Shown here piece by piece: positions 4,625 through 58,328 of a DNA stretch of 64,000 nucleotides (within the stretch, counting starts at the first letter, position 1; every line of letters begins with the position of its first letter). Under the pieces are notes generated by a model. The model had not been told where the DNA came from and ran no database searches. It worked only from the letters and a program-made list of their open reading frames with translations. This stretch comes from a virus, in the IMG/VR virus record IMGVR_UViG_3300007512_002660, positions 1-64,000 of that record; one strand, written 5' to 3'. The position numbers were made by a program, and so were the translations under genes.

Positions 4625-5401
4625 ATGCCAAAAATAACAGAACAAAAGCTTAGATCCATTATAAGACAAATTTTACTCGAAGATGTCCCAGGCGGCTTTG
4701 AAGTCGAGGATCTTGGTGGGATCGGATCCTGGATTTCTGATCCCATTGATAAATACAAGGGTCGGTCTGATGTGACTGGCGAAATGTTCAAAGTGGCCCC
4801 TGAGACTTCAGACATTAGACTATCAAGATCTTCCCAAGACGTGAGACGGTTTGCGTCTGCCGTTGGAATAGTTTCAGATAGAATGGGATTCGAAACTCCT
4901 GTAGTCACATCAGGAAAGAGAAGTGCTCAAGGTCAAGCTGTTGCCATGCTTATGAAATTTAAGAACGGTGAAGACTTACTTGATCTTTACATTTATGAAT
5001 GTTCTGAGTGTCTAGAGATTGTCGGAGACGAGTCTGCGGCAACTGAGTTGATCAACAGCATAATCGATATCTTTTCCAGCATGTCAGGAGATGAGGGACT
5101 AACAGAGAGAGATGCCATCCGAGACGTAACAGCTTTGCTAAGAAGGATAAAGATATCTGCTCATCAAGCTGGTATGGCAATCGACTTCAGGCCAACACAG
5201 GGTCTATCGGAGATCTTTGAAGCCCTTAGAAATTATGCTTCTTTTAATATAATAGATGAAACAAATAGACCCGGAGCTTCTCACTGGCATGTTTTTGTCA
5301 AAGAGTTTTCAAGAAGCGGTTATGAAGATGTAGTTGGAAATGTACAGCGCCGAGACCCAAGATCTCAAGAGGGCATTGATCCGGATCAAGACATAGACTA
5401 G
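4625..5401 (+). CDS. Tagged M15-type peptidoglycan peptidase, predicted capsid cargo or virion protein
   Basis: The N-terminus MPKITEQKLRSIIRQILLED is a variant of the tag shared by over 30 proteins here, with a possible cleavage after LLE. The C-terminal half has M15 (VanY-like) zinc-site motifs: SAHQAGMAID matches S-x-H-x2-G-x-A-x-D, and GASHWHVF supplies the late HWH. Such enzymes cut D-Ala-containing peptide cross-links. The combination suggests a virion-carried wall hydrolase used at DNA entry, although lysis is also possible. Confidence 0.8.
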   Translation: MPKITEQKLRSIIRQILLEDVPGGFEVEDLGGIGSWISDPIDKYKGRSDVTGEMFKVAPETSDIRLSRSSQDVRRFASAVGIVSDRMGFETPVVTSGKRSAQGQAVAMLMKFKNGEDLLDLYIYECSECLEIVGDESAATELINSIIDIFSSMSGDEGLTERDAIRDVTALLRRIKISAHQAGMAIDFRPTQGLSEIFEALRNYASFNIIDETNRPGASHWHVFVKEFSRSGYEDVVGNVQRRDPRSQEGIDPDQDID

Positions 5402-5413
5402 ATCGAGATAATC

Positions 5414-5442
5414 ATGTAATATCTCGTGAGCTGTGGTATAAT
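5414..5442 (+). promoter_or_regulatory. Early-type promoter
   Basis: ATGTAA (5414-5419), exactly 17 nt, then TATAAT (5437-5442) preceded by CTGTGG. It drives the lipoprotein gene at 5468. Confidence 0.85.
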
Positions 5443-5467
5443 ATAAACATCAAAAGGAGATTTTTTT

Positions 5468-6949: not shown

Positions 6950-7372
6950 ATGAAGAAGCTTACTGCTAGAGAACTTCGAAGAATCATTCGAGAGGAGACA
7001 ATTTCGATCGGAGGTAGAGAAATGGATGTAAGTGTTCAGGGCGGGGATATCTACGTTGATGAAGACTTGGACGGTAAAGACGATTATCAGTACTCTGCTA
7101 AAGTCATGGGCAGGGGCGCAGATATTAGTGATTTCTCATATGACACCGGGACTGAGACGCTCAATGCAAAGGGAAGCGTCGGGCTCTTTGGGTTTGACGA
7201 AGATATGCCGCCTCCTGATGCTGAGGACATGGCCAGGGACCTTGGAGATGATGAGATTATAATATCTAAGAATGATGGCGGTCCGGCCTATGATGTTACA
7301 TTAACAAAGGTAAATGAGGTTCGTAGATTAATAAGGATGCTAGTGCGTGAGGAGATCATAAGAGAGAGATGA
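6950..7372 (+). CDS. Tagged protein, predicted capsid cargo
   Basis: Tag: MKKLTARELRRIIREE at the N-terminus. No clear L-x-E site follows, so processing could occur at IRE. The body is acidic, with an Asp-rich DVDEDLDGKDDYQ-type segment. The C-terminus VNEVRRLIRMLVREEIIRER looks like a second tag helix. The stop overlaps the next start (ATGA). The function is unknown. Confidence 0.75.
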   Translation: MKKLTARELRRIIREETISIGGREMDVSVQGGDIYVDEDLDGKDDYQYSAKVMGRGADISDFSYDTGTETLNAKGSVGLFGFDEDMPPPDAEDMARDLGDDEIIISKNDGGPAYDVTLTKVNEVRRLIRMLVREEIIRER

Positions 7373-8904
7373 AGATTACCCTCGCTAAGCTAGAAAACCT
7401 TATTAATGAAGAGCTAAGAGCTCTTAACGAGGCTCCTTCTATGCCATGGGAAGATGATTTTGGCTGGGATGATGTGGGAGGATGGGCAAAGACTGCTGCT
7501 ATCGGCGGACCGTCTTCGGCAATTGCGCTTGCGCATGCAAAGACTGTCGGGGCAGCATCTGGTGAGTTGACCAAGGTTGCATGGAATAAGCTTGGGCCGT
7601 CAAATGCGCAGATCATTGCTTACCTAGATACCTGGGCAATGGAGCACCCTACAGTGAAGAAGCTAGTGGCCTCGGAAGGCAGGGGCATAACACGATATCT
7701 TCTTAAAAATCTCCCAGAGCCTACAAAATCAATAACCCTGACACCGTACAAAGGGAAGAATGTTAGCATTAAAGTCATTCTGGACACAGACGGGGATGCA
7801 TCTGTTATTCTTCAAGCCTCCTTCGCTCGCCAAGGTGTGACCCTAAAGTATGACCTTGATGATCTTCTTCTCAATTATCTTTCAACTGATAGTGGATTTG
7901 ATACATGGACAGCCGGGTTTGCATCTTCAATTATTGAACAACTCGAGCCAATGATCCATAATCTGGTGGCCACAAAAGACACGCTTGACAAGGGGGTAAA
8001 ATTTATAACCACCGCGGGTGGCCTCCTCGGAGATGAAGAAGATGAGGGTGATGGTGAGGAAGAGACCCTTGATGTTCAGGCCGTGATAAAAGACGTAAGG
8101 AGAAGAATAAACGGTCAGATTACCAGAAACATAGTTCCCCGCAAGAGCGAAATAATCTCAGGAGTCGAAGAGATATTTGACGGTGTTAAATCTTTTGTTG
8201 AGGATCATCCGTCCTACATAGTAGGACATTACGTTGTCCAGTGGCTGTCAACCCTCGATGTACCCGGTGACTGGCAGTCGGAATGGGAAACCAGGGCAGC
8301 CAAAGAAATAGCAGAGATGATTGAATCTGAAATGGAGTCTGCTGACTTGTTTACAAAAATAGGAAAAGCTCTTCAACCTCTCGATCGTGCCATAGAGCAA
8401 CAATTTGGCATGAATGAAAATATACACAACCAAAAAATCGCTATGACAAAAACGGAGATTAGACAAATCATACGAGAAGAGCTGAAGATAGGCTTTGAAC
8501 GCCTGCCCGGAGGTTCCTATAAGATGTATGATCCTGATCCAGACGATTCTACTTTCACCATATCTGCCGAGCCTCTAAGAAATTCCGAGGTAAGGCTTAA
8601 GATAGAAGAGTATTTGGGATTTGATAGTGAGAAAGATATCGATCGATTTCTTCGAATTCACAATGAGCCTCTAAGCATGATATTCTGGCATGCACAGAAA
8701 CAAGGCGGTGAGCTATTATCAGCTTGGGATAATGCCAAGGATTATATTGATACCATGTCCGAGAAAGATATGCTAATGAAGAACAGACCTATCCGCCAAA
8801 AAAGAATTGCCAAGCAGATCATAAGTGAAGATGTTGATCGAGACAGTGAGTCACAAGGTGACATAGTCGGTGAGCCTCCGGGAATGCCGGATCCTACAGC
8901 ATAA
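7369..8904 (+). CDS. Large tagged protein with an internal second tag
   Basis: The 511 aa protein begins MKITLAKLENLINEELRALNEAPS, with a predicted cut after LNE (about residue 21). At residue 359 a second tag appears (MTKTEIRQIIREELKIG), so the protein looks like two cargo units fused in frame. Between them is an acidic linker (GDEEDEGDGEEE). I recognise no enzyme domain. It may be a scaffold-like or polyprotein cargo. Confidence 0.8.
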   Translation: MKITLAKLENLINEELRALNEAPSMPWEDDFGWDDVGGWAKTAAIGGPSSAIALAHAKTVGAASGELTKVAWNKLGPSNAQIIAYLDTWAMEHPTVKKLVASEGRGITRYLLKNLPEPTKSITLTPYKGKNVSIKVILDTDGDASVILQASFARQGVTLKYDLDDLLLNYLSTDSGFDTWTAGFASSIIEQLEPMIHNLVATKDTLDKGVKFITTAGGLLGDEEDEGDGEEETLDVQAVIKDVRRRINGQITRNIVPRKSEIISGVEEIFDGVKSFVEDHPSYIVGHYVVQWLSTLDVPGDWQSEWETRAAKEIAEMIESEMESADLFTKIGKALQPLDRAIEQQFGMNENIHNQKIAMTKTEIRQIIREELKIGFERLPGGSYKMYDPDPDDSTFTISAEPLRNSEVRLKIEEYLGFDSEKDIDRFLRIHNEPLSMIFWHAQKQGGELLSAWDNAKDYIDTMSEKDMLMKNRPIRQKRIAKQIISEDVDRDSESQGDIVGEPPGMPDPTA

Positions 8905-13699: not shown

Positions 13700-13894
13700 A
13701 TGAAAATTAATTGTCGACATCTTAGAGACTATAACATATCGTGGATTGATCACCACAAGAGGGCTGTAAAGTGGGCATGGACTATGCAAAAAGCTACGAT
13801 ATGCCTGACTATTCACTCAATTCTCCCCTGGGCTTTTGAATCTTACGCATCCGCTAGAGTTCACGAGATATCGAAAGAAATGAGAGTACAGTGA
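13700..13894 (+). CDS. Small hypothetical protein
   Basis: ATG 13700 gives MKINCRHLRDYNISWIDHHKR, a possible degenerate tag, then a Trp- and Ala-rich segment, 64 aa in all. Its 3' end overlaps the GTG of the next gene by 4 nt, which favours a real gene. There is no clear ribosome-binding site. Confidence 0.5.
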   Translation: MKINCRHLRDYNISWIDHHKRAVKWAWTMQKATICLTIHSILPWAFESYASARVHEISKEMRVQ

Positions 13895-14481
13895 GAGTTA
13901 CATACAGACAGCTAAGACAAATTATTAGAGAGGCTCTAGAGAAGCCTCTCCCCACGGGTGCGTGGGAGTTTACAGAAGAAGAAAGAGAAGATCTCCGGTC
14001 CATCGGTGATTGGGTTCTTCCTGCAGAGTATGAAAATATCCAAATTGATATGAAGGATAGTGAGATTCCCAAGGTTAAGAAAAAAATAATATCAGCCCTA
14101 GAGCTTCTTTCTAAAAAAGCCAGGCCGGAATTTGAGATAGTTCGAAATAATCTAAAAAAGATAACGTCTGGTGAAAAAAGTGGGATCGACATAAGAAACA
14201 AAAAATTCTCTGTATCTGATGTTTCTATTTTAGATCAGACGACCGAGTGGCTTGCAAGCATAATTTATCATGATGCATATCATGTTGAGCAAGGTGAGAA
14301 GGGCTGGCATAAAAAAGATAGAGAGACACCTGCAAATCTTAAGCAGCTAGATCTCCTAAGAAAGCTCGGAGCTGACAATGAAATTGCCCATCTCGCGGCT
14401 GTTATAAAAGCAGGCGACCACTCAGACCTTGATGGAGATGGAGACTTTGATATGGACGATTATAATTTAAGGACTTATTAA
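13891..14481 (+). CDS. Tagged protein with HDxxH motif and calcium-loop end
   Basis: GTG start; tag MRVTYRQLRQIIREALEKP. A central helix carries ASIIYHDAYHVEQGEKGWHKK, where HDAYH with nearby His and Glu recalls a zinc-protease-type site with Asp in place of Glu; activity is uncertain. The C-terminus DLDGDGDFDMDDYN matches an EF-hand or dockerin-type calcium loop. It is probably a capsid cargo or virion protein. Confidence 0.75.
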   Translation: MRVTYRQLRQIIREALEKPLPTGAWEFTEEEREDLRSIGDWVLPAEYENIQIDMKDSEIPKVKKKIISALELLSKKARPEFEIVRNNLKKITSGEKSGIDIRNKKFSVSDVSILDQTTEWLASIIYHDAYHVEQGEKGWHKKDRETPANLKQLDLLRKLGADNEIAHLAAVIKAGDHSDLDGDGDFDMDDYNLRTY

Positions 14482-14482
14482 A

Positions 14483-15241
14483 ATGAAAATCACACGTAGA
14501 CAATTAAGACAGATCATCAAGGAAGAGCTAAGCAGGCTAGATGAGAGTATGAGCGTGGACACCATGGAGGCTCTTGAAAATGCTGTAAAGAGCGGCAACA
14601 GGGAAGAACTTAATCGTGTCTTAAAGATTGCGTATGAGGAAGGAATGCGCTCTTACTCTCCGGACCAAAGAGTCATAGGAATCCCTGGCAAGACAGGGGA
14701 TCGACCTGTGGATCCTGATCCACACGCTGAGGTTGTCAACACACTTGTATCTCTTGTGAAAAGCATGCAAGATGACACAGACAGTGATCGTGTCGAGAAG
14801 CTAGACCCTGATCTTCTGAAAGGCGCGTATGTATCTTCAAAAGAAGATCGGGAGGCTATGAAAGATTACATTGCTAAGTTAAAGGCGAAGAAAAAGTCTA
14901 TGGACACCGACGGTGACGGTGCTCTCGACGCAGATGAACTGAGAGCTATCGCTGACGATCTAGAAGGAGAAGGCCAGGATCCTCCTAAAAGCTTTAGTGT
15001 TCCATACAGAAGCTCCGGCTATCAAGGTAGGCGTATCATCTCACGTGACAGGGCGTGGCTTGAGTTTGTACCCAAGGGAAACCCGTCCCGGACTCCGGAA
15101 GACATGTTTAGAGAAGTTACCCTACTCAAGAACTGGGATCCAGAGATTCAAAAGGCTCTAGACGCCTCCGATCATGACCTCTCGAGAGGCGATATAGATC
15201 AGTACGACGTTTACAGCGTGTACGCAACGACAACAGGATAA
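14483..15241 (+). CDS. Tagged protein with EF-hand loop
   Basis: Canonical tag MKITRRQLRQIIKEELSRLDES, with a predicted cut after LDE. Residues about 140-153 form an EF-hand loop (DTDGDGALDADE), followed by LRAIADDLEG, a phrase shared with the genes at 17655 and 18785. The rest is acidic and not recognised. It starts 1 nt after the previous stop. Confidence 0.8.
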   Translation: MKITRRQLRQIIKEELSRLDESMSVDTMEALENAVKSGNREELNRVLKIAYEEGMRSYSPDQRVIGIPGKTGDRPVDPDPHAEVVNTLVSLVKSMQDDTDSDRVEKLDPDLLKGAYVSSKEDREAMKDYIAKLKAKKKSMDTDGDGALDADELRAIADDLEGEGQDPPKSFSVPYRSSGYQGRRIISRDRAWLEFVPKGNPSRTPEDMFREVTLLKNWDPEIQKALDASDHDLSRGDIDQYDVYSVYATTTG

Positions 15242-15244: not shown

Positions 15245-15586
15245 GTGAAAATCACACGCAGACAACTAAAGAGAATCATTAAGGAGGAACTGGATTTACT
15301 AAATGAAGGGCAGTCTCTTGGACTTACAGTTCGTCAAGACTTAGAAGACTTTGACCAGCTGGGAGATCCCAGTAGGGACGTTTTCTCAAATGCTCACTCC
15401 GAGATGTCAGAGCTTATTTGTGATCTTCAGAGTAAAAACGATGAAGCCGGATTAAAAGATGTCAGGTCCGACTGGGAACATACTATCAATACACACCATA
15501 ACAGGGGAGCCGGTGAGCTTAGTGATGCAACAAGACAAGCAGCACACGAAGCACTTGATATCCTCTTTTCTACGCAGTGCGGATAA
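15245..15586 (+). CDS. Tagged protein, predicted capsid cargo
   Basis: The GTG start gives MKITRRQLKRIIKEELDLLNEGQS, with a predicted cut after LNE (residue 21). The remaining 92 aa are mainly helical, with several His (NTHHNRG). The function is unknown. Confidence 0.8.
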   Translation: MKITRRQLKRIIKEELDLLNEGQSLGLTVRQDLEDFDQLGDPSRDVFSNAHSEMSELICDLQSKNDEAGLKDVRSDWEHTINTHHNRGAGELSDATRQAAHEALDILFSTQCG

Positions 15587-15598: not shown

Positions 15599-16303
15599 AT
15601 GAAAATCACACGCAAACAATTAAGACAGATTATTGAGGAGACGGCGGGTCCCGAAGGGGCTGATGATTTTGCAATACCCCAGCTTTCAGCCCATGATTTA
15701 AAGCTTAGGGCAAGTACAGACCATGTTCTCGATCTTCGTCGTAAGATGCAAAACGTGAAATGGATGAGTCCAGAGTGGAAACGGATGCATGATGAGGTAA
15801 AAGAAATACAAGCTTCATACACAGATGTTGAGACAACCGCTACACACCCACTTGATGTGGATGGCGATGGTAAGTTGACAATATCTGAAATGAAAATCAC
15901 ACGTGGACAATTAAGACAAATCATCAAAGAGGAAAGATCCAAACTTCTCTCAGAAGGTGTCACTAGCGAAGCAGCAAGAATAGGAAGAGAGTTGAACAAC
16001 ATACCAAGTCAGGCAATGCGCGCTGTTGGCGGTGATTTTTCAAAGCTTAATGACGCAGTTAATAAAGCTCAAGAAAAAATATTTGTTGACATCTTTCTGT
16101 CATACATGGATCAGAATCTTGCAAAGATGGATCAGCGGTATGGTCTCTCACCGGGTCAAGCGCATGACGTTGCAGACAGGGCAAGGGCTAGATATCAGGA
16201 TATGCTTAGCAATATGGGAGCCATCTCTACAGAGATTGGAGAGGCGATCAAGCCATTCATGAGGCTACTTGGGAAGTATTCTGAGGACATGGAGTTGGGA
16301 TAG
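15599..16303 (+). CDS. Tagged protein with an internal EF-hand plus second tag
   Basis: N-terminal tag MKITRKQLRQIIEE. At residues 83-97 comes HPLDVDGDGKLTISE, a 12-residue EF-hand loop, followed at residue 98 by a complete second tag (MKITRGQLRQIIKEER..LLSEG). No ribosome-binding site precedes the inner ATG at 15890, so I read one fused polypeptide that could be cut at ISE and again at LSE. The same linker plus tag occurs at the end of the 26518 gene. Confidence 0.8.
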   Translation: MKITRKQLRQIIEETAGPEGADDFAIPQLSAHDLKLRASTDHVLDLRRKMQNVKWMSPEWKRMHDEVKEIQASYTDVETTATHPLDVDGDGKLTISEMKITRGQLRQIIKEERSKLLSEGVTSEAARIGRELNNIPSQAMRAVGGDFSKLNDAVNKAQEKIFVDIFLSYMDQNLAKMDQRYGLSPGQAHDVADRARARYQDMLSNMGAISTEIGEAIKPFMRLLGKYSEDMELG

Positions 16304-16304: not shown

Positions 16305-16685
16305 ATGAAAATCACACGCAGACAATTAAGACAGATCATACAAGAAGAGCTGGGAAGACTTAATGAAGGTCCTAAACCAGAAGGGTACATAAAAACTGTT
16401 AATGTCGGAAAAGATGGAAAAACAATAGATGACGTTCGTAATGGCTTAAAAAATCCAGCCTACGTCGACAGACTATTCATCCACGCGACATCTAAGCGCC
16501 CATCAGGACAATTCTTTATTGCTTCGCTAGAGTCGCTGGGCGGCATAGAACATCATCACAGCCAGGAAGGAAAGGATGAGCTCAAGAAACTTGCTAAAGA
16601 GAAGGGCCTCGCCGGCAAGATCATGCACCTTGACAGTGTTCTTATTGATGGAAAACCATCAGTAGTAGTAATTGAGTTATTGTAG
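16305..16685 (+). CDS. Tagged protein, predicted capsid cargo
   Basis: ATG 16305 was chosen because it starts the tag MKITRRQLRQIIQEELGRLNEGPK, with a cut predicted after LNE. The body has YIKTVNVGKDGKTIDDVRNGL and IEHHHSQEGKDELKKLAKEKGL, a compact alpha/beta domain of about 100 aa, not recognised. Confidence 0.8.
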   Translation: MKITRRQLRQIIQEELGRLNEGPKPEGYIKTVNVGKDGKTIDDVRNGLKNPAYVDRLFIHATSKRPSGQFFIASLESLGGIEHHHSQEGKDELKKLAKEKGLAGKIMHLDSVLIDGKPSVVVIELL

Positions 16686-17654: not shown

Positions 17655-18194
17655 ATGAAAATCACTCGTAGACATCTAAGACAGATTATCAGAGAAGAAT
17701 TAATTAGAGAGGCAGATCCGGATACCGATGCTGATGATGCAGCTGAGCTGAGAGATATTGCAGATGATCTTGAAACACAAAGCTTGGACCCGGTCGTCGA
17801 TAGCTGGATTAAATTTGTTGATAGAAACTCTGATATAAAGGACACTCTGCTTTCCGCGTGGGAAAAGATGACTACAGGTACCTCTGATCCCTGGGAGGTA
17901 GCTAGTGAAGTCGGCGAGGCTATTGGCCTCCCGTGGATCGAAAAGGGCCAGTTCTATTTGCCTGACAGGGGTAGTAAAGAAGAGGGTCTGTCTAGCGTTC
18001 GAACGGGAGTTTTATGGCATGCAAAGAAGATGAGACCTGGGAAGAAGTATCTCAATAGAGGTGAGATTGAACAAGAGCTTGAGAGGCGAAAATCTGATCG
18101 AGACACAGCCAGATCAGCAATGAAACCTGCGCCCTTAAGTAAAAAACCCTATGGGGGCGGTTCTCGTTATAGACCCTGGGGTCGGTCAACCTAA
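17655..18194 (+). CDS. Tagged protein with Asp-rich motif
   Basis: Tag MKITRRHLRQIIREELIREADPD, with a predicted cut after IRE. DPDTDADDAAELRDIADDLE follows, a phrase shared with the 18785 gene (second copy at its residue about 445). Near the C-terminus IEQELERRKSD is encoded by a 36 nt stretch identical to one in the 22958 gene. The function is unknown. Confidence 0.8.
   Translation: MKITRRHLRQIIREELIREADPDTDADDAAELRDIADDLETQSLDPVVDSWIKFVDRNSDIKDTLLSAWEKMTTGTSDPWEVASEVGEAIGLPWIEKGQFYLPDRGSKEEGLSSVRTGVLWHAKKMRPGKKYLNRGEIEQELERRKSDRDTARSAMKPAPLSKKPYGGGSRYRPWGRST
18064..18099 (+). repeat. 36 nt direct repeat, copy 1
   Basis: This 36 nt stretch starting AGATTGAACAAGAGC is identical to 23019-23054. 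It encodes IEQELERRKSD in frame in both genes and indicates recent exchange between cargo genes. Confidence 0.9.
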
Positions 18195-18770: not shown

Positions 18771-18784
18771 TACAGGGACAATTG

Positions 18785-46807: not shown

Positions 46808-47170
46808 ATGAAAAGAACTAGACGCGATACGGTCAGGAGACTCTACAGGGAAGCGATCCTTGAGTACTTCGGGGAGTCAGACCACCTAAGGGAGGCAGTA
46901 AAGAGAGATGTGCACTGCGCTAACAAGGCTCCAGGGGAGTGGGTAGGTGCTCACGGTGTCCTAGAGATCTACTGTGAGGGAGGGATCCCGAATGCTTCAG
47001 ATATAATCGAGCCAGGCTGGTACGGCCTCGAAGGCCCTACACACTATAACAGCGACACCTGGGCCAAGGTAGATGACTGGGTGAATCTGGGACTAGCTGC
47101 TCTCGGCAAGACAGATCGTGTCCACCACGAGCCCTGGAACAGTGCAGTGATCGGGGTCTACTGGTCCTAA
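46808..47170 (+). CDS. Hypothetical protein with a degenerate tag-like start
   Basis: MKRTRRDTVRRLYREAILEYFGES is a basic amphipathic helix similar in layout to the cargo tag but without the ITRRQL core. The 120 aa body has DVHCANKAPGEWVGAHGVLE and WYGLEGPTHYNSDTW. It is the last gene before the GGGCC island. Confidence 0.65.
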   Translation: MKRTRRDTVRRLYREAILEYFGESDHLREAVKRDVHCANKAPGEWVGAHGVLEIYCEGGIPNASDIIEPGWYGLEGPTHYNSDTWAKVDDWVNLGLAALGKTDRVHHEPWNSAVIGVYWS

Positions 47171-47744: not shown

Positions 47745-48230
47745 ATGAGAGTTACTCGCAAGCAGTTAAGAAAAATAATCCGGGAAGAATCCTTCAGGGC
47801 ACTTAGGGAGCAAACAGCACCTGAGCCCCCAGAGCCAGGAGAGGAAGATGAAGAAGATGAAGAGAGAGACTATGGAGACAGCCGAGCCGGACGACCAGAC
47901 CCGAAAGCTGTCCCCTGGAGGAAAATTACTGAAGAGATGGCTGGACAGGGCGGTAAGCTCGTTGCCATGGACAAGGGTTCCGGTCTTGGACAGGTTTACT
48001 TTTTTGGTGTTGGAGATCACCCCCCGAAAGGGTGGCCAGTCAAAATGCTCATGCGAGTAAAGAATGAAAAAGGACAAAGTGCCAAGGAGCTTGGAATAGA
48101 GATACGAAGGGTCGGAAGTGCTGTAAGTGGAAATAAGAATGTGAAGCTCGGTCGAGCAAGCACAGACTTTGAGATGGTTTCAGATGCTGAGCTTATCTTT
48201 GTTGCTTACAATGCAAATGCAGACTTCTAA
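47745..48230 (+). CDS. Tagged protein, predicted capsid cargo
   Basis: ATG 47745 follows CAGGAGACAAAGG and gives MRVTRKQLRKIIREESFRALREQTAPE, with a cut predicted after LRE. A Pro-Glu-acidic linker (EPGEEDEEDEERD) precedes a domain with ITEEMAGQGGKLVAMDKGSG and WPVKMLMRVKNEKG. The function is unknown. ATG 47712 upstream would break the tag alignment. Confidence 0.8.
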   Translation: MRVTRKQLRKIIREESFRALREQTAPEPPEPGEEDEEDEERDYGDSRAGRPDPKAVPWRKITEEMAGQGGKLVAMDKGSGLGQVYFFGVGDHPPKGWPVKMLMRVKNEKGQSAKELGIEIRRVGSAVSGNKNVKLGRASTDFEMVSDAELIFVAYNANADF

Positions 48231-48238: not shown

Positions 48239-48787
48239 ATGAAAATTACACGTAGACAGCTAAGAATGCTTATTGAAAAAGTTCTAAGAGAGCAGACCGC
48301 CTCTGTCTCACCTTCACAGGCCCAAATCGAAAAGAACCTTGAGAAGTTGGCGAAGGGCCCTCCCGTGCTCACCCATCTGGGGACGGATCCCGGAAAAGAG
48401 AGCGTTTTCGACAAAGTCTCAGATGATGAATTTCCCAAGCAGATGGCCGGGGTATTGGCACTTGAAATGATAAAGTCTACCAGAAAGACAAAGAGAGCTG
48501 CACGGAAAGCAGGTGTTGATAGGGTGGCTGATTTCTATGATGGAATAGAGCTACTAAGGACCGATGATTCTCGAGGGCAAGGGGTAACAGAGCTTGTGTA
48601 CACTGTCGACTTAGGGGACCAGACTCTCAAGGACGCATGGGTAGATAGTTACAATAAGTTCAATTCAAGTGCCCTGGATAGAATAATGCGTAATCATGAC
48701 AAGACAGGTCAATATTCTGTCGGAAGCTTTGGGAACGCTGATGGGACTGCTATCCAGATCGGAATCATTGACAGCCAGACAAAGTAA
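48239..48787 (+). CDS. Tagged protein, predicted capsid cargo
   Basis: Tag MKITRRQLRMLIEKVLREQTASV, with a cut predicted after LRE (about residue 18). The body is mixed alpha/beta (VLALEMIKSTRKTKRAARKAGV). It starts 8 nt after the previous stop. The function is unknown. Confidence 0.8.
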   Translation: MKITRRQLRMLIEKVLREQTASVSPSQAQIEKNLEKLAKGPPVLTHLGTDPGKESVFDKVSDDEFPKQMAGVLALEMIKSTRKTKRAARKAGVDRVADFYDGIELLRTDDSRGQGVTELVYTVDLGDQTLKDAWVDSYNKFNSSALDRIMRNHDKTGQYSVGSFGNADGTAIQIGIIDSQTK

Positions 48788-48856: not shown

Positions 48857-49126
48857 ATGAAAATCACAAGAAGCCGGCTAAGAAAGATTATACTTGAAAC
48901 AGTAGTTAATGAAGGTGATTCAGGTGCCGGAAGAGGTAAGATTCTGAATGCCATAGAAGATGTATATGGAGTCGATCAGCAAGAGGCCCAGCAGATATGG
49001 GCTACTGTACCGGAAGATAGGGCTGCGCAAGCAGTCCAGCTTGCATCGTCAGACTGGGTCACAGAAGAACTAGTTGAGTCCATCATCAGAGCTCTTCAGG
49101 AGCGCGGTCATCTTCGTAGAAGCTAG
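48857..49126 (+). CDS. Tagged small protein, predicted capsid cargo
   Basis: ATG 48857 follows CAGGAGACAGAG, the same leader words as at 47745. Tag MKITRSRLRKIILETVVNEGDSG, with a cut predicted after VNE. The 66 aa rest is helical (AQQIWATVPEDRAAQAVQLA). Confidence 0.8.
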   Translation: MKITRSRLRKIILETVVNEGDSGAGRGKILNAIEDVYGVDQQEAQQIWATVPEDRAAQAVQLASSDWVTEELVESIIRALQERGHLRRS

Positions 49127-49599: not shown

Positions 49600-50091
49600 A
49601 TGCGTAAACTTAAGATTAATGAGCTAAGACAGCTAATCAAAGAGGAGGCCGACACCGACGAAGAGGGTGAGGAGGGCAGCGAGGCTGTTGATGAGCAACA
49701 TCAACCCAGAGCTGGCAAGTTTAAGACACCAGCTGAGTACATCGCCAGCGGTCACGAGGACACCTTTCTTGAAGTCACCGGACGCCTCATGGGATACAAG
49801 AAGCTCTGGGAAGGTACATGGGGCACCAAGGGAGTCGAAGAAATGGCTAAGCAGCAGGCGAGATTCTCCGGTGGCGAACTTAGCTACCATGAGCTGGATG
49901 TAGGTGGCCTGAGATTCTGGCTCACCATAGGAACGGTCCTATCAGATTACCACGACGGCAGCGTCGGCGCTAACGTCATCGAGGAGCTTGAGTCTGACGG
50001 GATCATCGACGGTAGTTTCAGGAGAGTGAGCAGCAACATGGGAATTAGCCTCGTAGCCCTAAACGGTTGGGCTAACAGGGAAGGGATCTAG
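49600..50091 (+). CDS. Tagged protein, paralogue of 51871-52302
   Basis: Tag-like start MRKLKINELRQLIKEEAD, then an acidic stretch and VDEQHQPRAG, the usual phrase after a predicted cut. The body (AEYIASGHEDTFLEVTGRLMG ... LSDYHDGSVGANVIEELESDG) aligns with the 51871 product (AEYISGGHEGVFMEVMGALA ... CSDYFDGSSGAKTFEELEADN). These two are a duplicated cargo pair; the function is unknown. Confidence 0.82.
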   Translation: MRKLKINELRQLIKEEADTDEEGEEGSEAVDEQHQPRAGKFKTPAEYIASGHEDTFLEVTGRLMGYKKLWEGTWGTKGVEEMAKQQARFSGGELSYHELDVGGLRFWLTIGTVLSDYHDGSVGANVIEELESDGIIDGSFRRVSSNMGISLVALNGWANREGI

Positions 50092-50111: not shown

Positions 50112-50435
50112 ATGAAGATCACGCGGGGACAGCTTAGGCACATACTCCAGGAGGAGATGACACGGGCATTGCGTGAAGACGGTCACACCGATATCCCCTC
50201 AGCACAAAGGGCCATGATGACCTCGATGGAGGACGCGACAGACATTTTAAACGCGTTAGCCCATGCTGATGGCGGTCACCACCTGCCCTCCTGGTGGATG
50301 AAGAAGGTGCACTTAGCCGCGGATTACCTTAATGTGACTCGCGATTATCTCGTCACTAAGCCTCATACGGGACAACAAATTTCTGAAGAGGAGGGTTCCG
50401 GTGGATGCGACTGTGGTTGCGGTAACTGCGGCTAG
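50112..50435 (+). CDS. Tagged protein with a Cys-rich tail
   Basis: Tag MKITRGQLRHILQEEMTRALREDGHT, with a cut predicted after LRE. The tail GGCDCGCGNCG packs four Cys in nine residues, a possible metal-binding end. The next gene starts inside this tail. Confidence 0.78.
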   Translation: MKITRGQLRHILQEEMTRALREDGHTDIPSAQRAMMTSMEDATDILNALAHADGGHHLPSWWMKKVHLAADYLNVTRDYLVTKPHTGQQISEEEGSGGCDCGCGNCG

Positions 50436-50709
50436 ATCCGGCAGCGCAGGTAAGGTCACCCTGCGTAAGCGGGACCTGATTGAATTAATTAAATGCGATG
50501 TTGTCGATCTCACCGAGGGTGCCTTCCGGGTCGTGCTTGACTCTGACGACGGCGGCACTCTCATTAACGTCATGCTCGAGGATCACGCCAACACGCATGA
50601 GATCATGAAAGAGCTGTATCTGGCCTATCCTGGTCAGCGCCTGGTAATCACCAAGGTCCCACTTGGGTGGTTAAAGGTGTTTATGCCATTAAATAGCCAC
50701 AGAGACTGA
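50401..50709 (+). CDS. Hypothetical protein without tag
   Basis: GTG 50401 follows GAGGAGGG and overlaps the upstream gene by 35 nt. The 102 aa protein MDATVVAVTAARSGSAGKVTL, then FRVVLDSDDGGTLINVMLEDH, is an alpha/beta domain. The function is unknown. Confidence 0.68.
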   Translation: MDATVVAVTAARSGSAGKVTLRKRDLIELIKCDVVDLTEGAFRVVLDSDDGGTLINVMLEDHANTHEIMKELYLAYPGQRLVITKVPLGWLKVFMPLNSHRD

Positions 50710-50764: not shown

Positions 50765-51115
50765 GTGAGAATCACATTGCAAGAGCTACGTCAAATAATC
50801 TCTGCGGAGATCAGTGGGCTAAGTGAGGATATGAGGACACCCGAATTCATGAGTATGACGCAGGGTGCGAGACTCGGGGGATCGGAGGAATCCGAAGTGG
50901 AGCAAGAGGTCTCTCTTGCGACGCTCGGAGAAAGAGTTCTATTGGGTCTTTTTGGCATTAGGGGATCTCTTGAGACAGTATTATCTGAGATTGAGGATAT
51001 GGCTAACCACCACGAATCACAGTCTCGGGGTCTAGAGATGCAATTTGCTGATAGTCATGCGGAACTAGCCATGGTTTTATCAAATCTTGAGCAAGCAATT
51101 GATAGGATGAAGTGA
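50765..51115 (+). CDS. Tagged protein, predicted capsid cargo
   Basis: GTG 50765 (MRITLQELRQIISAEISGLSEDMR) was chosen because it aligns with the tag and follows GAGGGG; ATG 50750 is an alternative. A cut is predicted after LSE. The rest is helical with a coiled-coil end. Confidence 0.75.
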   Translation: MRITLQELRQIISAEISGLSEDMRTPEFMSMTQGARLGGSEESEVEQEVSLATLGERVLLGLFGIRGSLETVLSEIEDMANHHESQSRGLEMQFADSHAELAMVLSNLEQAIDRMK

Positions 51116-51317: not shown

Positions 51318-51845
51318 GTGAAAAACTTAACCAAAAAAGGTCTTCAAAAATTGATTCTTCAAGAGGCCAAGAAACTTAATAGTAAAAAAAGAGCCCTCAA
51401 CGAATCGGTCTTGATTGATAATAGCAGGGGAAGTAGAAAAAATCTTAGAACAATGATTCTCAGAGAGGCCAAAAAGATGGGTATCGTTGATGCACCCAAA
51501 GAAAACTGGCCCAGGCCTGGTGACAAAGTATCAGATATTGCAAATAAGGCTGAGTTCTCTAAGATGAAGGTTGACAAGGAAGCAGCGAAGCTCGTTTCTC
51601 ACAGCTGTGCCAATCACGTCCTGATGGAATCACCTGGTGATCAGAAGACTCACGGTATTTCAGAAAAACACTCCCTTGGAACCTGTGTCTGGCACTCACT
51701 CAACGAATCAGGTCACGTCTCCCATTACGATGTTCGATTTGGTGATAAGGTTGTCAAGAACATCCCGGCTAGCAGACTAATCGTAATATCTGAAAGAAGC
51801 CATCAACATGAAACCCGTTCAAAAAGAAAGTCTAAGAAAAGCTAA
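51318..51845 (+). CDS. Tagged protein with two tag-like helices
   Basis: The GTG start gives MKNLTKKGLQKLILQEAKKLN, then RALNES (possible cut after LNE), then a second similar helix (RKNLRTMILREAKKMG). The C-terminal domain has HSCANHVLMESP and CVWHSLNESGHVSHYDVRFGD, rich in His. The tail is basic. The function is unknown. Confidence 0.75.
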   Translation: MKNLTKKGLQKLILQEAKKLNSKKRALNESVLIDNSRGSRKNLRTMILREAKKMGIVDAPKENWPRPGDKVSDIANKAEFSKMKVDKEAAKLVSHSCANHVLMESPGDQKTHGISEKHSLGTCVWHSLNESGHVSHYDVRFGDKVVKNIPASRLIVISERSHQHETRSKRKSKKS

Positions 51846-51870: not shown

Positions 51871-52302
51871 ATGAAAATTTCAATGAATCAACTTAAGAGC
51901 ATCATCAGAGAGGAATCATCTCGAATGAGAGAGCAGCACCAACCCAGGTCAGGAGGAGGAAAAACCGCGGCTGAGTACATCTCCGGAGGACATGAGGGCG
52001 TATTTATGGAGGTAATGGGAGCTCTCGCTGCATGTGATAAAATATGGGATTGGGTCGAAGGGCAGGTAAGCAACTATGCAAGAATTAATCAGGGTCCAGT
52101 GTCTACTAGCAGCGGTACAGATTATCATGACATTTTAGTTGTTGGGGCAGTCTGCAGTGATTACTTTGACGGTAGTTCAGGTGCAAAAACTTTTGAGGAG
52201 CTTGAAGCGGACAATAAGATTGACGGCTCCTGGAGAAAAGCAGCAGCTAGCGATGGGTTTAGCCTGATGTGGGCCAACGGAATTAAACAGAAGAATTGTT
52301 AA
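51871..52302 (+). CDS. Tagged protein, paralogue of 49600-50091
   Basis: ATG 51871 gives MKISMNQLKSIIREESSRMREQHQPRS, with a cut predicted after MRE. It aligns with the 49600 product along its length but has extra Cys (ACDKIW, AVCSDYF, KQKNC). It partly overlaps no neighbour once this start is used. Confidence 0.8.
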   Translation: MKISMNQLKSIIREESSRMREQHQPRSGGGKTAAEYISGGHEGVFMEVMGALAACDKIWDWVEGQVSNYARINQGPVSTSSGTDYHDILVVGAVCSDYFDGSSGAKTFEELEADNKIDGSWRKAAASDGFSLMWANGIKQKNC

Positions 52303-53474: not shown

Positions 53475-54281
53475 ATGAAAATTACAGCGCGCGAAATTAG
53501 AAAAATGATCCTAGAAGAATCTCAAAAGCTAGAGAGAGAGAAAAGAGATCAAGACGATGAAATCCTAAGAGAAGCCTGGTTAGATCTTAGAGATCGAGGA
53601 TACACAGATTCAGAAGTGATTGATGGTTTGCTTTCTAGTGCAGGCGTTATGATTGAGTCAAGATTTCTCAACGAAGAAGATGCTGCCGGAGAAAATGGAG
53701 GCGCGGGTTTCTTTTCCACTATTGCGACTGGGGCAGGAGATGTCCTTAAAGGTAAAATTTCACAGATTGTAATTGATACAATTCTATCTGCATTCCAGGT
53801 AGATCTTCGAACACCTTTTGGAAGAATGGTCAGAGCCTTAGCAATCAACGTCGGTGAAAACTTTGAGTATGCGAGGTGGAGAGAATATTTCGGAGGGGAA
53901 AGTAGTTGTGGTCTTTGGGCAGAAACAATTTCACAAGCTGTTGGAGAAACTGTGATCTTAGAGCCGATAATGTCAGCAATTTTAGTGCAGCTCGGACTTC
54001 GAGGAGCGGGAGGGGCAGCAACGCCGACGCGACCTCCCGATATTGCTGCACCAGACGCAGGTATTGGGGGAGTGCTCGCGGGAACTTTAATTAGAACCAT
54101 AGAAGAGGCAATAAACGAAGCCCTTGTGGGACCCGTTTCCGATGCAATTGCTGACAGGTTGTGTAGAATTAGAGTTAGGGATCTGGTTGGAGATACTTTT
54201 GGACTAGGCTCTATAGCCCGCAGACTAACTGGGTCTGACAGGCCTGAAGGATATTACTCAGCACTATCCGGTGCAACTTGA
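53475..54281 (+). CDS. Tagged membrane-active-like virion protein
   Basis: Tag-like start MKITAREIRKMILEESQKLE. A clear FLNEEDAAGENGGAG follows at about residues 65-79, where a cut after LNE would release a long propeptide. The mature part has amphipathic Gly/Ala-rich segments (FFSTIATGAGDVLKGKISQIV, GGVLAGTLIRTIEEAINEALVG). Related FLNE-type proteins occur in marine T4-like phages. It is probably a structural or ejected protein. Confidence 0.75.
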   Translation: MKITAREIRKMILEESQKLEREKRDQDDEILREAWLDLRDRGYTDSEVIDGLLSSAGVMIESRFLNEEDAAGENGGAGFFSTIATGAGDVLKGKISQIVIDTILSAFQVDLRTPFGRMVRALAINVGENFEYARWREYFGGESSCGLWAETISQAVGETVILEPIMSAILVQLGLRGAGGAATPTRPPDIAAPDAGIGGVLAGTLIRTIEEAINEALVGPVSDAIADRLCRIRVRDLVGDTFGLGSIARRLTGSDRPEGYYSALSGAT

Positions 54282-54282
54282 T

Positions 54283-54936
54283 ATGGTGGTAGACAAAGCT
54301 GCTCTAAGAGAAATCATAAGATCTGTAATTTTTGAAGATCTCGGTAAGCACAAAACTAGAATGTTCAAGGGTACGGGTGCATCTCATAGCTACAATACAA
54401 AGTCCGGACCTAGCATGCTTGGAGATCTAGATCCTTTTGACGTTGAGGACGAGACACCTGACAGTCCAGTTGAAAAAATAAAAACTAGTCGAGCCTTTAA
54501 AGAAGATATAAAAAACATGTTTGAAAATAAATCTGATCAGTTCAGATCTGTCTACGACTCTAAGATAAATTACAAAGTAAGGCCTGAAAAATATAGAACC
54601 ACGCGAGATGCCCAAGGTGTTTATACTGTCATGCCATACAAGTCAGACTTTATTAATTATTTTAGTTTTTCTTCTCCCGGCCAAGCAAGAAAATCTGCAC
54701 AAAAAATATATGAAATTTTTACAGACTATAGGGATAGGAATGATTTTGTCGGAATGGACATGGCTAGAAAATATTTACAGCTAGGGTACAAGCTTTCAAA
54801 AAGATTTGAAAAATATCCCTCCGGAAAAAGGTCCCTAAGGAGCGAATCGGGAGATAGAGATATGTCGCTATCTGCACTAGAATTTAAAAAAAAATTAGTT
54901 AAAGTAATGAAAGACAAAGAGTATAATCCTTTTTAG
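54283..54936 (+). CDS. DUF4385 family protein with a tag-like start
   Basis: ATG 54283 gives MVVDKAALREIIRSVIFEDLG, a degenerate tag. Residues about 95-185 match DUF4385: RPEKYRTTRDAQGVYTVMPYKSDF, SPGQARKSAQKIYEIFTDYR and DFVGMDMARKYLQLGY. DUF4385 occurs in bacteria and phages with no assigned function. The tag implies that it may be packaged. Confidence 0.8.
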   Translation: MVVDKAALREIIRSVIFEDLGKHKTRMFKGTGASHSYNTKSGPSMLGDLDPFDVEDETPDSPVEKIKTSRAFKEDIKNMFENKSDQFRSVYDSKINYKVRPEKYRTTRDAQGVYTVMPYKSDFINYFSFSSPGQARKSAQKIYEIFTDYRDRNDFVGMDMARKYLQLGYKLSKRFEKYPSGKRSLRSESGDRDMSLSALEFKKKLVKVMKDKEYNPF

Positions 54937-55007: not shown

Positions 55008-57140
55008 TTGGAATTTACTGAAGACAAACTTCGAAAGCTTGTTAGAGAAGAGGCAGCCAAAAAGCTTGTCTCTGAGAAAAAAACTGAAGTAAAAAAGTTT
55101 TTAACTCTGCAGGAGCAGCGGAGTACAGCACAGGTTCGTAGTGATAATCAGCGGGGATATCTTGGAGGCTCAGTTGTGGGGGCTTTTCAAGGACAGCTTG
55201 GAATAACAAGTCGCATCTTCACTCCGGATTTTAAGGTAGAGTTTGCAGCCAACTACATGGATGGAAGAAAGGGGAGGGCTACGCGTAGCACCAACGAAGA
55301 TGAGATCGATAGTGCACTACGTGATTTTCAACTTGAAGTTGAAGAACACAAGCTAGGACCCTACACACATCGTGCCTGGGAGATCTGGGTCGGAGATAAC
55401 TACACATCCGAACAAAGAAACAAAGCAACTCAGGTGTACAATGATCCAAGGTGGGGTGCAGAGCTAGCAAAAATATTTGATGATAGTGATGAAACTGTGC
55501 CTATTCAGGCACCATCAGCTGGATCAGTAGCCCACACCTGGGAGGTTGCAGGAAGAGAGCTAGGCTGGACAATAGGAACCCGATCAAGACTTCAAGGATA
55601 TTCGAGATCTACCACGTATCATGTTGAAAATGCAAGGGACTTTATGCAGGCAATCATAAGTAACAGCAATTTTGGTGGCTTCAATCCTAGATTAGTTGCC
55701 CTGGCCCTGGCAGAAACTGACGAGGCAGCAGAAAGGGCGCGTCGCCGAACCGATGAGGAGCCTGATGAAGCTGATCGATCTCGTCAGGTAGACATTAGCA
55801 CGATCGAAGGATCAGACGTCGCTGCTGTTGTACCTCAACGGCAAAATGAGCCCCAGACAGACTATGGTGACCGACTTGATGCTTCGGCTGCCTATCTTAA
55901 CGGTGCACCCCTCCAGTTCGGACTTTCAGACATTCCCCTTGAGGAAAATCCAGCAGAAATTGAGCTGGGTGGTCTCTATGATTATGGCGGGCAGTGGCAA
56001 AGCAACGTTCCAACACAAGTTTATTTTCTTATCACCCCTGGTAACCTACCCGGCCCCAGGGGTCAGAAAAAAATGCACCCAATCATTACAAAAGGAGCAC
56101 TAAATACCCTTTCCCAGCAGATGGCAGAGGGATTTTATCACGGTGCTTTTTCAGGGATAGGTGCCAACGTTGGAGCGGGATCAATAGAGTCGTGGATCCA
56201 ACTAATCAAATGGCTATCAGGTACAGGTAACAGATGCGGCGGAGGAGTCTTTGACGGAACAGGTGGAGGAAATCTATCAGGAAGGGTCGGATATAGGGAT
56301 GGCGGAGGGGTTTATGATGCCCTAAGTTATCTTTTGGCCCAATTCAAATCAAATAGTTCAGCAACCATTGATAGCGATTTTGCCAACATGACCCTTGTCG
56401 ATGCTGCACTTCAGTCAGAATACACAGATGACAGTGATGACTGGGGCGACGACGATGATGTAAATAAAAGAAGGGATTATCTTGGACGATTAACAAGGGC
56501 TTTTGTTCAGAGACCCGGGGGTAGAAGGAGAGCAAATACTGATACAGTTCTACAAAACCCTTGGGTTGTAAGACTAGCTAAAGAAAGAACAGATGAAATA
56601 GCAAGAGAGATTAACCCCAGGATAGTAAGAGAGTCAGCATCTGAAACATTTTCCAGAAAGGAAATCTCATCATTATCTTCAATTATCACCGGGGCAATAC
56701 AGGAGTCATTCGGCGTTGAAAACGTGTCTAGGAGAACCGGTCGATCACAAAGAAGGGCCCCGGTGAGACCAGTTGCTGAACCCCCTGCAGCGCCACCGAC
56801 CCGAAGAGGAACGGTGTTTTCAATTGGAATGTCCAATGACCCGAATTCAATTATTAAAATCCAAAGATTCTTCAATACCGCAAACACGGGTGTGTGGAGT
56901 GGCGACGATGACCGATCATTTCTTTCATATTTTGAACTTTACTACTCTGGTAGGCTTAAGCCTGGACTGAGTGGAGTACTGCAAACCGGGGGTTGGGATG
57001 CAATGGCTCAGTACCTTGCCGTAAATCAGATCGGAGGCGGATATAATAGTGGGCCTAGTGGCCTATTAAGCTTTATCACCACCCCGGGGTATTTCTCTAG
57101 TCAGCGAAGAAGAATACGAAATTTTGAAAGAGATGAGTGA
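55008..57140 (+). CDS. Large tagged virion protein
   Basis: TTG 55008, with TGGGAG upstream, starts MEFTEDKLRKLVREEAAKKLVSEKKTE, with a cut predicted after VSE. The 710 aa chain contains Gly-rich stretches (RCGGGVFDGTGGGNLSG), a Pro-Ala-rich linker (PVAEPPAAPPTRRG, about residue 597) and a last domain (IIKIQRFFNTANTGVWSGDDD) that faintly resembles a peptidoglycan-binding repeat. It is the largest protein in the window. A structural or ejected protein is likely; the family is not recognised. Confidence 0.75.
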   Translation: MEFTEDKLRKLVREEAAKKLVSEKKTEVKKFLTLQEQRSTAQVRSDNQRGYLGGSVVGAFQGQLGITSRIFTPDFKVEFAANYMDGRKGRATRSTNEDEIDSALRDFQLEVEEHKLGPYTHRAWEIWVGDNYTSEQRNKATQVYNDPRWGAELAKIFDDSDETVPIQAPSAGSVAHTWEVAGRELGWTIGTRSRLQGYSRSTTYHVENARDFMQAIISNSNFGGFNPRLVALALAETDEAAERARRRTDEEPDEADRSRQVDISTIEGSDVAAVVPQRQNEPQTDYGDRLDASAAYLNGAPLQFGLSDIPLEENPAEIELGGLYDYGGQWQSNVPTQVYFLITPGNLPGPRGQKKMHPIITKGALNTLSQQMAEGFYHGAFSGIGANVGAGSIESWIQLIKWLSGTGNRCGGGVFDGTGGGNLSGRVGYRDGGGVYDALSYLLAQFKSNSSATIDSDFANMTLVDAALQSEYTDDSDDWGDDDDVNKRRDYLGRLTRAFVQRPGGRRRANTDTVLQNPWVVRLAKERTDEIAREINPRIVRESASETFSRKEISSLSSIITGAIQESFGVENVSRRTGRSQRRAPVRPVAEPPAAPPTRRGTVFSIGMSNDPNSIIKIQRFFNTANTGVWSGDDDRSFLSYFELYYSGRLKPGLSGVLQTGGWDAMAQYLAVNQIGGGYNSGPSGLLSFITTPGYFSSQRRRIRNFERDE

Positions 57141-57146
57141 TAGATC

Positions 57147-58328
57147 GTGAAATATTTAAAAAATATTATTCTGACAGAGAGGGATCTAAGAAGTATTATC
57201 TCTGATAATATACTTTCTGAAAAAAGATTTTATTCTTACGACGGGCCCAGGCGTGCAGGATTTCAAACTTCTGGAGAAGCGGCGTGTAGTGTTGCAGGCG
57301 CAGTAGGTACCAGAATATCGAGTGACAAAGCTAGGATAAAGGCTGGTATCATACTCGGAGTCGGGGTCGATGACGATGACCCGATAGCCAAAGAAACCTT
57401 TGTATCTGATCCGATTAGAAAGAGTGAGTCAGCGGCTGCAATAGGGAGCGATTCAGAGGTAGACGCTGATAGGATGTGGAAGATGACTATTGGGTATGCT
57501 GACGGAGATGGGCCTCAGGCTAACAAACACATGCTAGCACTTTTCATCCTACCAAAACCCGATGAGATTACAATCAGGGCTGCAGAAACTGCGGAAGACG
57601 ATGAGGGAGATGAGGTTGTGTTGACCCCGGCGGTAACTACTCCCGGAAGCACTTTAAGATTTATTCTAAGGTACGCAAATAGTGACGGTTCTCCCATCAC
57701 CGACGACAGCGGGCACATAGCAGTTGATCCACACACGGGGGCAGTGACTGACAACGATGATAAGTGGTTTAAATCTGTTGTTCCAATAGCTTTTGAGTGG
57801 ATGGCACGGTATGTTAATAATGTTGAACTGTGTGATGAAAGGACCCGGGCAAGCATTAGTCGCAGGTCTGGAAGAACTGGGGGGACTACGGGCGTTTATG
57901 CTGCAGGAGCCCTCGCGTTGTCATCGTGGTGGGACGGAGACAGGGATACAGGGCTGCCCGTAAGAGCAGCTTCAGATATTGAAGCCCCCGCCCGACGGGT
58001 TCTTGTTGTGTCCAGAATGACTAGCACTGTGAACGAAAAGCTCGAACAAAAAGCTTCAGGCCTGAGGCGCTGGAGGGTTGATGTAACAGAGAGTGGAACT
58101 CATGTCTATCTTATTCCAACGGGTACCTTCCAGAAAGACAACTCTTATGCAACATCAGCCCGTGAAGATTACAGCACCAACAAAGCAAGAGTTGGGAGTG
58201 CCGATGCGGCCATGCGTAAATTTGGATCCCACGGAAATTTTAAAACATTTTTACAAATTTTAACAAAAGTTTGTGAAGAGCTGGGGGAAAATGATCCAGG
58301 CTCGACTCTTATTGATATGTCAAGATAG
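57147..58328 (+). CDS. Tagged virion protein
   Basis: GTG 57147 gives MKYLKNIILTERDLRSIISDNILSEKRF, with a cut predicted after LSE. The 393 aa protein has an acidic middle (ETAEDDEGDEVVLTP) and WDGDRDTGLPVRAASDIEAPARRVLVVSR. It lies 6 nt after the large virion gene and is probably its partner. The family is not recognised. Confidence 0.75.
   Translation: MKYLKNIILTERDLRSIISDNILSEKRFYSYDGPRRAGFQTSGEAACSVAGAVGTRISSDKARIKAGIILGVGVDDDDPIAKETFVSDPIRKSESAAAIGSDSEVDADRMWKMTIGYADGDGPQANKHMLALFILPKPDEITIRAAETAEDDEGDEVVLTPAVTTPGSTLRFILRYANSDGSPITDDSGHIAVDPHTGAVTDNDDKWFKSVVPIAFEWMARYVNNVELCDERTRASISRRSGRTGGTTGVYAAGALALSSWWDGDRDTGLPVRAASDIEAPARRVLVVSRMTSTVNEKLEQKASGLRRWRVDVTESGTHVYLIPTGTFQKDNSYATSAREDYSTNKARVGSADAAMRKFGSHGNFKTFLQILTKVCEELGENDPGSTLIDMSR

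Follow-up and report, generated by a model that had tools for sequence, protein, structure and literature searches.

A short N-terminal tag is carried by dozens of otherwise varied proteins of a large uncultured virus (IMG/VR record IMGVR_UViG_3300007512_002660), and it is very probably a capsid-targeting sequence: cargo would dock on the prohead core, the tag would then be cut off and the cargo would probably be injected. The window, by which we mean the whole stretch of DNA analyzed, comprises 64 kb of this 68,276-bp record. The core form of the tag consists of variants of MKITRRQLRQIIKEE at protein N-termini. A capsid-targeting system had been proposed in the first-pass annotation of the window, and it is supported by gp21-type (S77) prohead protease and Gp23 capsid genes in relatives, by a tag-like start beside the protease and by a matching L-x-E site. 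The hosts of these large viruses are bacteria.

We searched all six frames with a 15-position score matrix. The matrix was built from 15 of the detected tags, and the scores of those tags are therefore partly by construction. Ten shuffles, on both strands, and the reversed sequence served as controls and scored at most 13.2. Above this maximum were 27 start-codon matches, with scores of 15.6 to 49.6 and all on the plus strand; the match at 6950, which sits one codon past the start codon, is counted among them. With weaker variants included, 36 tagged products lie between 4625 and 58328, again all on the plus strand (Table 1), in agreement with the number first estimated. The least certain are those at 46808, 50401, 54271, 55008 and 57147. 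Most had been said to have L-x-E after the tag, and [LIM]-x-E indeed falls inside residues 14-33 in 26 of the 36, while [LIMV]-x-E falls inside residues 10-16 in 30. The continuation EQ[YH]QPR, described as frequent, has a counterpart in just six. Extra tags were found internally or C-terminally at 15890 (score 47.2), 27073 (44.7) and 23766 (17.0), and further internal tags at 8437 and 51423 score below the control maximum. In two proteins (15845-15934 and 27028-27129) an EF-hand-like stretch is joined to a second tag (HPLDVDGDGKLTISE-MKITR..), and one of these junctions is C-terminal in its protein. The shared junction points to a polyprotein or to shuffling at tag sequences.

Conservation of the tag is at the protein level, not at the DNA level. 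After removal of the first 28 residues, a BLAST comparison among 35 tagged proteins of the window related only 15599 to 26518 and 49600 to 51871 (E≤1e-3), so the bodies are, as first described, unrelated apart from these two pairs. When 149 tagged proteins, almost all of them from contigs other than the window's, were aligned, the consensus was MKITRRQLRxIIxE, and past the tag two isolated residues alone reached 50%. At columns 3, 4, 8, 11 and 12 of 28 window tags, the second codon position never changes while the third does, and the upstream DNA is near chance, with a mean identity of 0.27 over positions -40 to -16. On the codon pattern and the unconserved upstream DNA we rejected the reading of the tag as a DNA repeat or promoter. 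More generally, a start region repeated at the DNA level (ribosome site, promoter or recombination hot spot) and copied with the genes, without a targeting role, might account for codon sharing of 0.47 against 0.36 expected overall, for example AGA at positions 6 and 9. The identical EF-hand-plus-tag junction in two proteins likewise implies that tag DNA may join in shuffling. Given the conservation described above, and a protein pattern that holds across many contigs, we consider such an origin highly improbable.

We found the tag in many other viral sequences. A DNA pattern for MKITRxQLRxII matched 50 stretches on 42 distinct contigs of the viral collection. In 84,980 species genomes the same pattern gave four exact matches, with one convincing place, a 305,838-bp contig in a Methylococcaceae metagenome-assembled genome (MAG; TMED69). 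This MAG has 27 tag matches, those listed all being on that contig, which also carries an S77 protease. Because 17 tagged starts fall within 8 kb and S77 is present, the contig is taken to be from a phage. The remaining three matches (in two Rhizobium and one Beijerinckiaceae MAG) share a single 15-residue frame, MKITRPQLRSIIAGR, followed by a stop, and the tag was rejected as a bacterial feature. Tag-bearing contigs are presumably mostly marine, going by sample numbers and the name TMED. An iterated matrix run over the fetched loci yielded 323 tagged starts, near-copies included; the shuffled control gave none at a score of at least 8 and the reversed control two, the higher one 11.8. At matrix scores of at least 20, with offsets allowed, there are 31 tags in the 293 kb of record G010, 27 in the 273 kb of G002, 16 in the 255 kb of G003, 28 in G004 and 25 in the window record. 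Over 68 kb, G004 (83 kb) matches the window at 99.997% identity, and it is about 15 kb longer. A hidden Markov model (HMM) of the tag had 40, 12 and 4 matches in G019, G012 and G005 at E≤0.01; at E≤0.1 it had 18 in G039, 17 in G033, nine in LR756508.1, eight in G048, one in G043 and none in G044. The number of tags per virus thus reaches 40. A tag query in 50,697 phage records found one, the 484-kb uncultured phage LR756508.1. The HMM had no match in T4, GAP32, SCTP-2, RM378, Mel-JY01, Vibrio 2.275 or LR756511 and one in a Flavobacterium phage, outside its head module. No tag was found in 15 random contigs.

The S77 protease is present in 13 of 28 tag-bearing records. These are 12 of the 13 tag-bearing IMG/VR records of at least 123 kb, plus LR756508.1; none of the 14 below 100 kb has it. 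The Gp23 capsid family occurs in the same 13 records, of 29 searched, and in 12 relatives a Gp23 with an L-x-E propeptide end has S77 nearby. The proposed search for a prohead protease therefore succeeded in relatives but not on the window's own record, where neither S77 (PF03420) nor Gp23 was matched on a fragment too short to decide. Five S77-positive records (G002, G005, G012, G019 and G020) were also retrieved with a window gene that carries no tag. In G010 (L078 14270-18151) and in G015, two Gp23-type capsid genes lie in tandem. The protease of LR756508.1 (L001 454-2178) is split by an intein-like insert with LAGLIDADG, the intein match being below the Pfam cut-off, and G049 and G053 show the same split S77 match in a frame of 560-571 residues.

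We also looked at what is encoded beside the protease. Additional relatives were found with the DUF2201-type window gene at 33582, which is not tagged; it gave 34 loci, 28 of them new, and 13 of the 28 have S77. On the downstream side of the protease, relatives have genes for one or two small proteins with the starts MAKISKSMLKGIVKECLVEILAE-G... or ..KLTPxxLKRIIxEE.... In all 23 related S77-positive contigs examined (12 of 12, then 11 of 11 more), a gene at this place has a tag-like N-terminus, with a score of at least 6; in four of the 23 (L070, L354, L356 and L359) the second start type alone scores. No such start was found downstream of the protease in three random S77-positive contigs, and only 2 of 3,338 open reading frames (ORFs) in control loci had a tag-like start. 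An HMM made from 24 cargo tags alone had a match some 0.7 kb beyond the protease in seven of the 28 new contigs (G036, G037, G041, G045, G052, G053 and G054, of which G036 and G037 seem near-copies). The expectation that a tag HMM would track prohead proteases is thus borne out beside the protease in these seven; S77 being common anyway and tag number being variable count against it. Taken together, the two computational checks that had been proposed turned out mostly favourable. In LR756508.1, beyond the protease and two other open frames, six genes in a row have tag-like starts, of which the matrix scored three and three were recognised by eye; in G002 tagged genes come directly after the capsid gene. 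If the tag does target the capsid, genes may become cargo by gaining a start like that of these protease-adjacent proteins.

The tag's L-x-E, followed by Q/A/S/G, resembles the terminus of the capsid propeptide, which in 12 of 12 relatives is L-[RK]-E with A (8), Q (3) or S (1) after it, the cut being placed by eye against T4 gp23 at what we take to be its cut position. Of 312 tags, 288 have [LIV]-x-E at residues 12-14 and 159 have a second [LIM]-x-E in residues 16-27. A hydrophobic residue at 20 leads to glutamate at 22 in 54 of 87 cases, against 8.6% in bodies. The residue after the tag's L-x-E is A/S/G/Q in 98 of 163 sites compared with 109 of 459 body sites (p=1.6e-16; this value and the next ignore relatedness). 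Among tags lacking a second L-x-E, 90 of 153 have a small residue at position 15, against 36 of 159 among those with it (p=6.5e-11). The second site and a small residue 15 thus tend to be alternatives, so that a tag usually retains a single cuttable site. When [LIVM]-x-E before A/S/G/Q/T/N/C/D/F was counted, 242 of 312 had it in residues 11-31 and 47 of 310 in residues 46-66.

The cargo overall is small, varied and acidic. The fetched loci contain 341 tagged proteins in 250 body clusters, 208 of these single. Only five Pfam families were found among 149 scanned tagged proteins (SLT, phage lysozyme, two HNH models and DUF5824), and the PHROGs among the matches listed (25 of 32) are of endolysin, transglycosylase, baseplate hub, HNH and deoxyribonucleotidase types. 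In three proteins from outside the window, two of them with weak tags, enzyme domains start right behind the tag: deoxyribonucleotidase/HAD-type at residue 20-24, HD at 21-26 and P-loop ATPase-type at 26-30. Compared with other ORFs of 80-260 residues, which are mechanical calls and include some that are not real genes, the cargo of G002, G003, G004 and G010 is more acidic (p 1e-8 to 6e-4). Pfam matches confirmed the peptidoglycan-binding (PGBD) domain of 18782 and the DUF4385 domain of 54271 that had been named among the tagged proteins. The M15 peptidases named with them were a misassignment: the Pfam M15 match is the untagged protein 8958, and for tagged 4625 this reading has neither Pfam nor PDB-sequence support. 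Wall hydrolases, envisaged among the proteins possibly delivered, do not dominate the cargo.

Residues 2-14 of the tag (K-I-T-R/K-x-Q-L-R-x-I-I-K-E) may form a short basic helix. The predicted helix would resemble the one at the N-terminus of the small proteins whose genes follow the prohead protease; we take these proteins to be part of the prohead core. Tagged cargo would thus be held on the core during head assembly. Cleavage by the S77 protease behind the [LI]-x-E at residue 14 or residues 18-23 would then release mature cargo within the head, and this cargo would probably enter the host with the DNA. From the sequences we infer with good support that tagged proteins are packaged and cut, and more weakly that they are injected and act against host defences. 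The function of the cargo would most likely be early anti-defence or host takeover.

Other roles at the head or elsewhere were considered. If the tagged proteins served as scaffold or core helpers and were broken down or gone before DNA packaging, little or nothing would be delivered. A precedent is in the T4 record, where the scaffold gp22 is degraded by gp21, many cargo bodies are small and acidic, and small size is shared by the head-module proteins that have this start. The bodies are nevertheless extremely varied and include recognisable enzymes that a scaffold would not need, and we therefore regard this role as unlikely. Slightly less likely still, the tag could be a docking helix for another assembly, such as the baseplate, a phage nucleus, the host envelope or a replication complex, with L-x-E as a natural helix end. 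The internal and C-terminal tags would fit this, as would one baseplate-hub and several transglycosylase, endolysin or lytic-tail PHROG matches among the 149 tagged proteins. However, in the head regions read, the only non-cargo tag-like starts adjoin the prohead protease (weak starts in L354 excepted), and in G010 the head-module gene adjoining the protease is one of only two tag-like starts outside tag clusters. Moreover, two residues past the hydrophobic position there is glutamate, not lysine or arginine, and the residue after the tag's glutamate is biased as in the capsid propeptide.

Several observations count against capsid targeting itself. Tags occur inside or at the C-terminus of window proteins, one tagged protein matches a baseplate-hub PHROG, and 10 of 312 tags have neither type of cleavage site. 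C-terminal tags would be less odd given that T4 Alt is cut at both ends, according to passages of PMC9026906; the same passages call T4-type internal proteins basic, unlike the acidic cargo here. S77 and Gp23 were not matched on the 83-kb near-identical copy either, making two fragments without them, and the tag-bearing G017 (134.7 kb) lacks both. Because S77 is common in large contigs anyway (two of four random contigs of at least 130 kb, 3 of 15 random contigs overall), its co-occurrence with the tag is by itself weak evidence. The number of tags also varies: at E≤0.1 the HMM has no match in S77-positive G031, G044 and G049 and a single one in G043, against nine in LR756508.1, and at E≤0.01 it has four in G005. 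The amphipathicity of the composite consensus is not significant, as 22% of shuffles reach it. Finally, the contigs are related, and the counts and p-values are therefore not independent.

Capsid targeting nonetheless has close parallels in known phages. Like the capsid-targeting sequence (CTS) of T4 IPI, IPII and IPIII, which is processed by gp21, the tag is a short N-terminal propeptide that starts with MK, has [IL]-x-E before A or another small residue and is common to unrelated proteins with different bodies; the T4 N-termini were taken from NC_000866 and compared by eye. The gp21/gp23 head genes of T4 also have counterparts, here in relatives of the window virus. As described in passages of PMC9026906, T4 propeptides are 10-19 residues long, attach cargo to the core and are then cleaved off by gp21. 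Unlike in T4, the tag reads as given above and not MKTYQEFIAE, up to 40 proteins per virus carry it instead of a few, the cargo is acidic, and protease-adjacent genes have a similar start. No homology to MKTYQEFIAE was found, the tag HMM having no T4 match at E≤0.1, which also weighs against the likeness; we therefore class the tag as working like a CTS and not as a member by sequence. The data are best explained by the T4 plan run with a tag that differs in sequence and is used far more widely. In giant phages of the phiKZ/SPN3US type, many packed proteins are likewise cut after x-x-E by a gp21-like protease, from propeptides with several possible sites, whereas the passages at hand describe no common N-terminal tag and SPN3US favours A-x-E (PMC9026906, PMC10052503). 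In P1, the N-terminal 30 residues of DarB suffice to send a foreign protein into the head, and Dar proteins are anti-restriction cargo; this is the signal of one protein and not of dozens, and its cutting is not described in the passages at hand (PMC9024508). A literature search by tag strings and combined terms, covering titles and abstract starts in open-licence PMC, returned no description of the tag.

Table 1. Tagged genes of the window. "Tagged" denotes a matrix score above the control maximum of 13.2; "weak" and "doubtful" denote a lower score or absence from the matches listed.
Positions	Strand	Length (aa)	Tag and features	Basis
4625..5401	+	258	weak variant MPKITEQKLRSIIRQILLED; no Pfam match	score 10.8
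6950..7372	+	140	tagged (MKKLTARELRRIIREE); C-terminus also tag-like (VNEVRRLIRMLVREEIIRER)	matrix
7369..8904	+	511	tagged (MKITLAKLENLINEELRALNE/A); weak internal tag at 8437	matrix
13891..14481	+	196	tagged (MRVTYRQLRQIIREA); EF-hand-like DLDGDGDFDMDD near end	matrix; EF-hand by eye
14483..15241	+	252	tagged (MKITRRQLRQIIKEELSRLDE/S)	matrix; EF-hand match below Pfam cut-off
15245..15586	+	113	tagged (..RIIKEELDLLNE/G)	matrix
15599..16303	+	234	tagged; second full tag inside at 15890 (DVDGDGKLTISE-MKITRGQLRQIIKEERSKLLSE/G)	matrix
16305..16685	+	126	tagged (..QIIQEELGRLNE/G)	matrix
16694..17650	+	318	tagged (..IKEELLRE/QYQPHE)	matrix
17655..18194	+	179	tagged (..IREELIRE/A)	matrix
18782..20551	+	589	weak variant (MMNLKLLRNIIKEEMLRE/Q); peptidoglycan-binding domain	score 10.0; PF01471 E 2.4e-8
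20563..20982	+	139	tagged (MKISEKNLRKLVLLEILKE/QYQPR)	matrix
21000..21578	+	192	tagged (..DLRE/QYEPR)	matrix
21656..21976	+	106	tagged (..IKEELTHLSE/G)	matrix
21973..22338	+	121	tagged (..ILEEKQRLMLE/S); body recurs in related contigs	matrix; body clustering
22347..22961	+	204	tagged (..IKEEMNRSLLKE/G)	matrix
22958..23185	+	75	tagged	matrix
23182..23388	+	68	tagged (..MILE/S)	matrix
23490..24554	+	354	tagged; second, weaker tag inside at 23766	matrix
26240..26518	+	92	tagged (..IKEETRKLSE/G)	matrix
26518..27129	+	203	tagged (..IIKE/A); ends in EF-hand-like stretch and second tag (27073-27129)	matrix
28807..29457	+	216	tagged (..VQEEILRE/QQYQPR)	matrix
46808..47170	+	120	doubtful variant (MKRTRRDTVRRLYREAILE)	score 8.1
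47745..48230	+	161	tagged (..IREESFRALRE/Q)	matrix
48239..48787	+	182	tagged (..LIEKVLRE/Q)	matrix
48857..49126	+	89	tagged	matrix
49600..50091	+	163	weak variant (MRKLKINELRQLIKEE); paralogue of 51871	score 12.6; BLAST
50112..50435	+	107	tagged (..LQEEMTRALRE/D); Cys-rich end	matrix
50401..50709	+	102	doubtful variant after ~17 residues	not among matrix matches listed
50765..51115	+	116	tagged from GTG (VRITLQELRQIISAEISGLSE/D)	matrix
51318..51845	+	175	weak double tag (MKNLTKKGLQKLILQEAKKLN...; LRTMILREAKKMG at 51423)	scores below control maximum
51871..52302	+	143	tagged (MKISMNQLKSIIREESSRMRE/QHQPR)	matrix
53475..54281	+	268	tagged (MKITAREIRKMILEESQKLE)	matrix
54271..54936	+	221	weak variant; DUF4385	score 6.2; PF14328 E 3.5e-31 from residue 97
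55008..57140	+	710	weak variant (MEFTEDKLRKLVREEAAKKLVSE); no PHROG match	score 6.5
57147..58328	+	393	weak variant (..TERDLRSIISDNILSE); no PHROG match	not among matrix matches listed

A search for close relatives of 55008 found the near-identical contig alone. Single-sequence structure predictions of 4625 and 18782 had a mean predicted local distance difference test (pLDDT) score of 37.6 and 38.8 and were not used. Outside the listed genes, a Nudix protein at 60397-60873 has a tag-like stretch in its first ~25 residues (MKLRDENFLRDYIRNIIRERK), its Nudix domain starting at residue 31. Another repeated family consists of tandem small proteins with MKVGDLV-like starts, many with VISESR-like ends (29648-30756 and 36797-37371); three were tested and had no Pfam match. 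An ATPase and a DUF2201 metallopeptidase/VWA-like protein lie at 32463-34880, the second being conserved across the virus group. In Rhodothermus phage RM378, genes annotated as ATPase and HNH endonuclease adjoin the capsid gene and are possibly the same pair. At 60892-63402 of the window and 63457-65388 of its record G000 (L086 3457-5388), PrkA (PF08298/PF06798), DUF444 (PF04285) and SpoVR (PF04293) are adjacent; in bacteria they are linked to stress and sporulation.

If capsid targeting is right, one short motif would predict the packaged and injected proteins of uncultured large phages. The 341 tagged proteins would at once supply candidates for early effectors and anti-defence proteins, and the tag could be a portable packaging signal. 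We more tentatively propose, as a possibility somewhat short of even, that the phage head is a general protein-delivery device in which an exchangeable signal makes nearly any gene cargo. It would deliver a fast-changing arsenal whose members are small and acidic, many of them perhaps DNA mimics or other anti-defence proteins, acting before phage gene expression. The tag would then be a sequence-only readout of the injected proteome of uncultured viruses.

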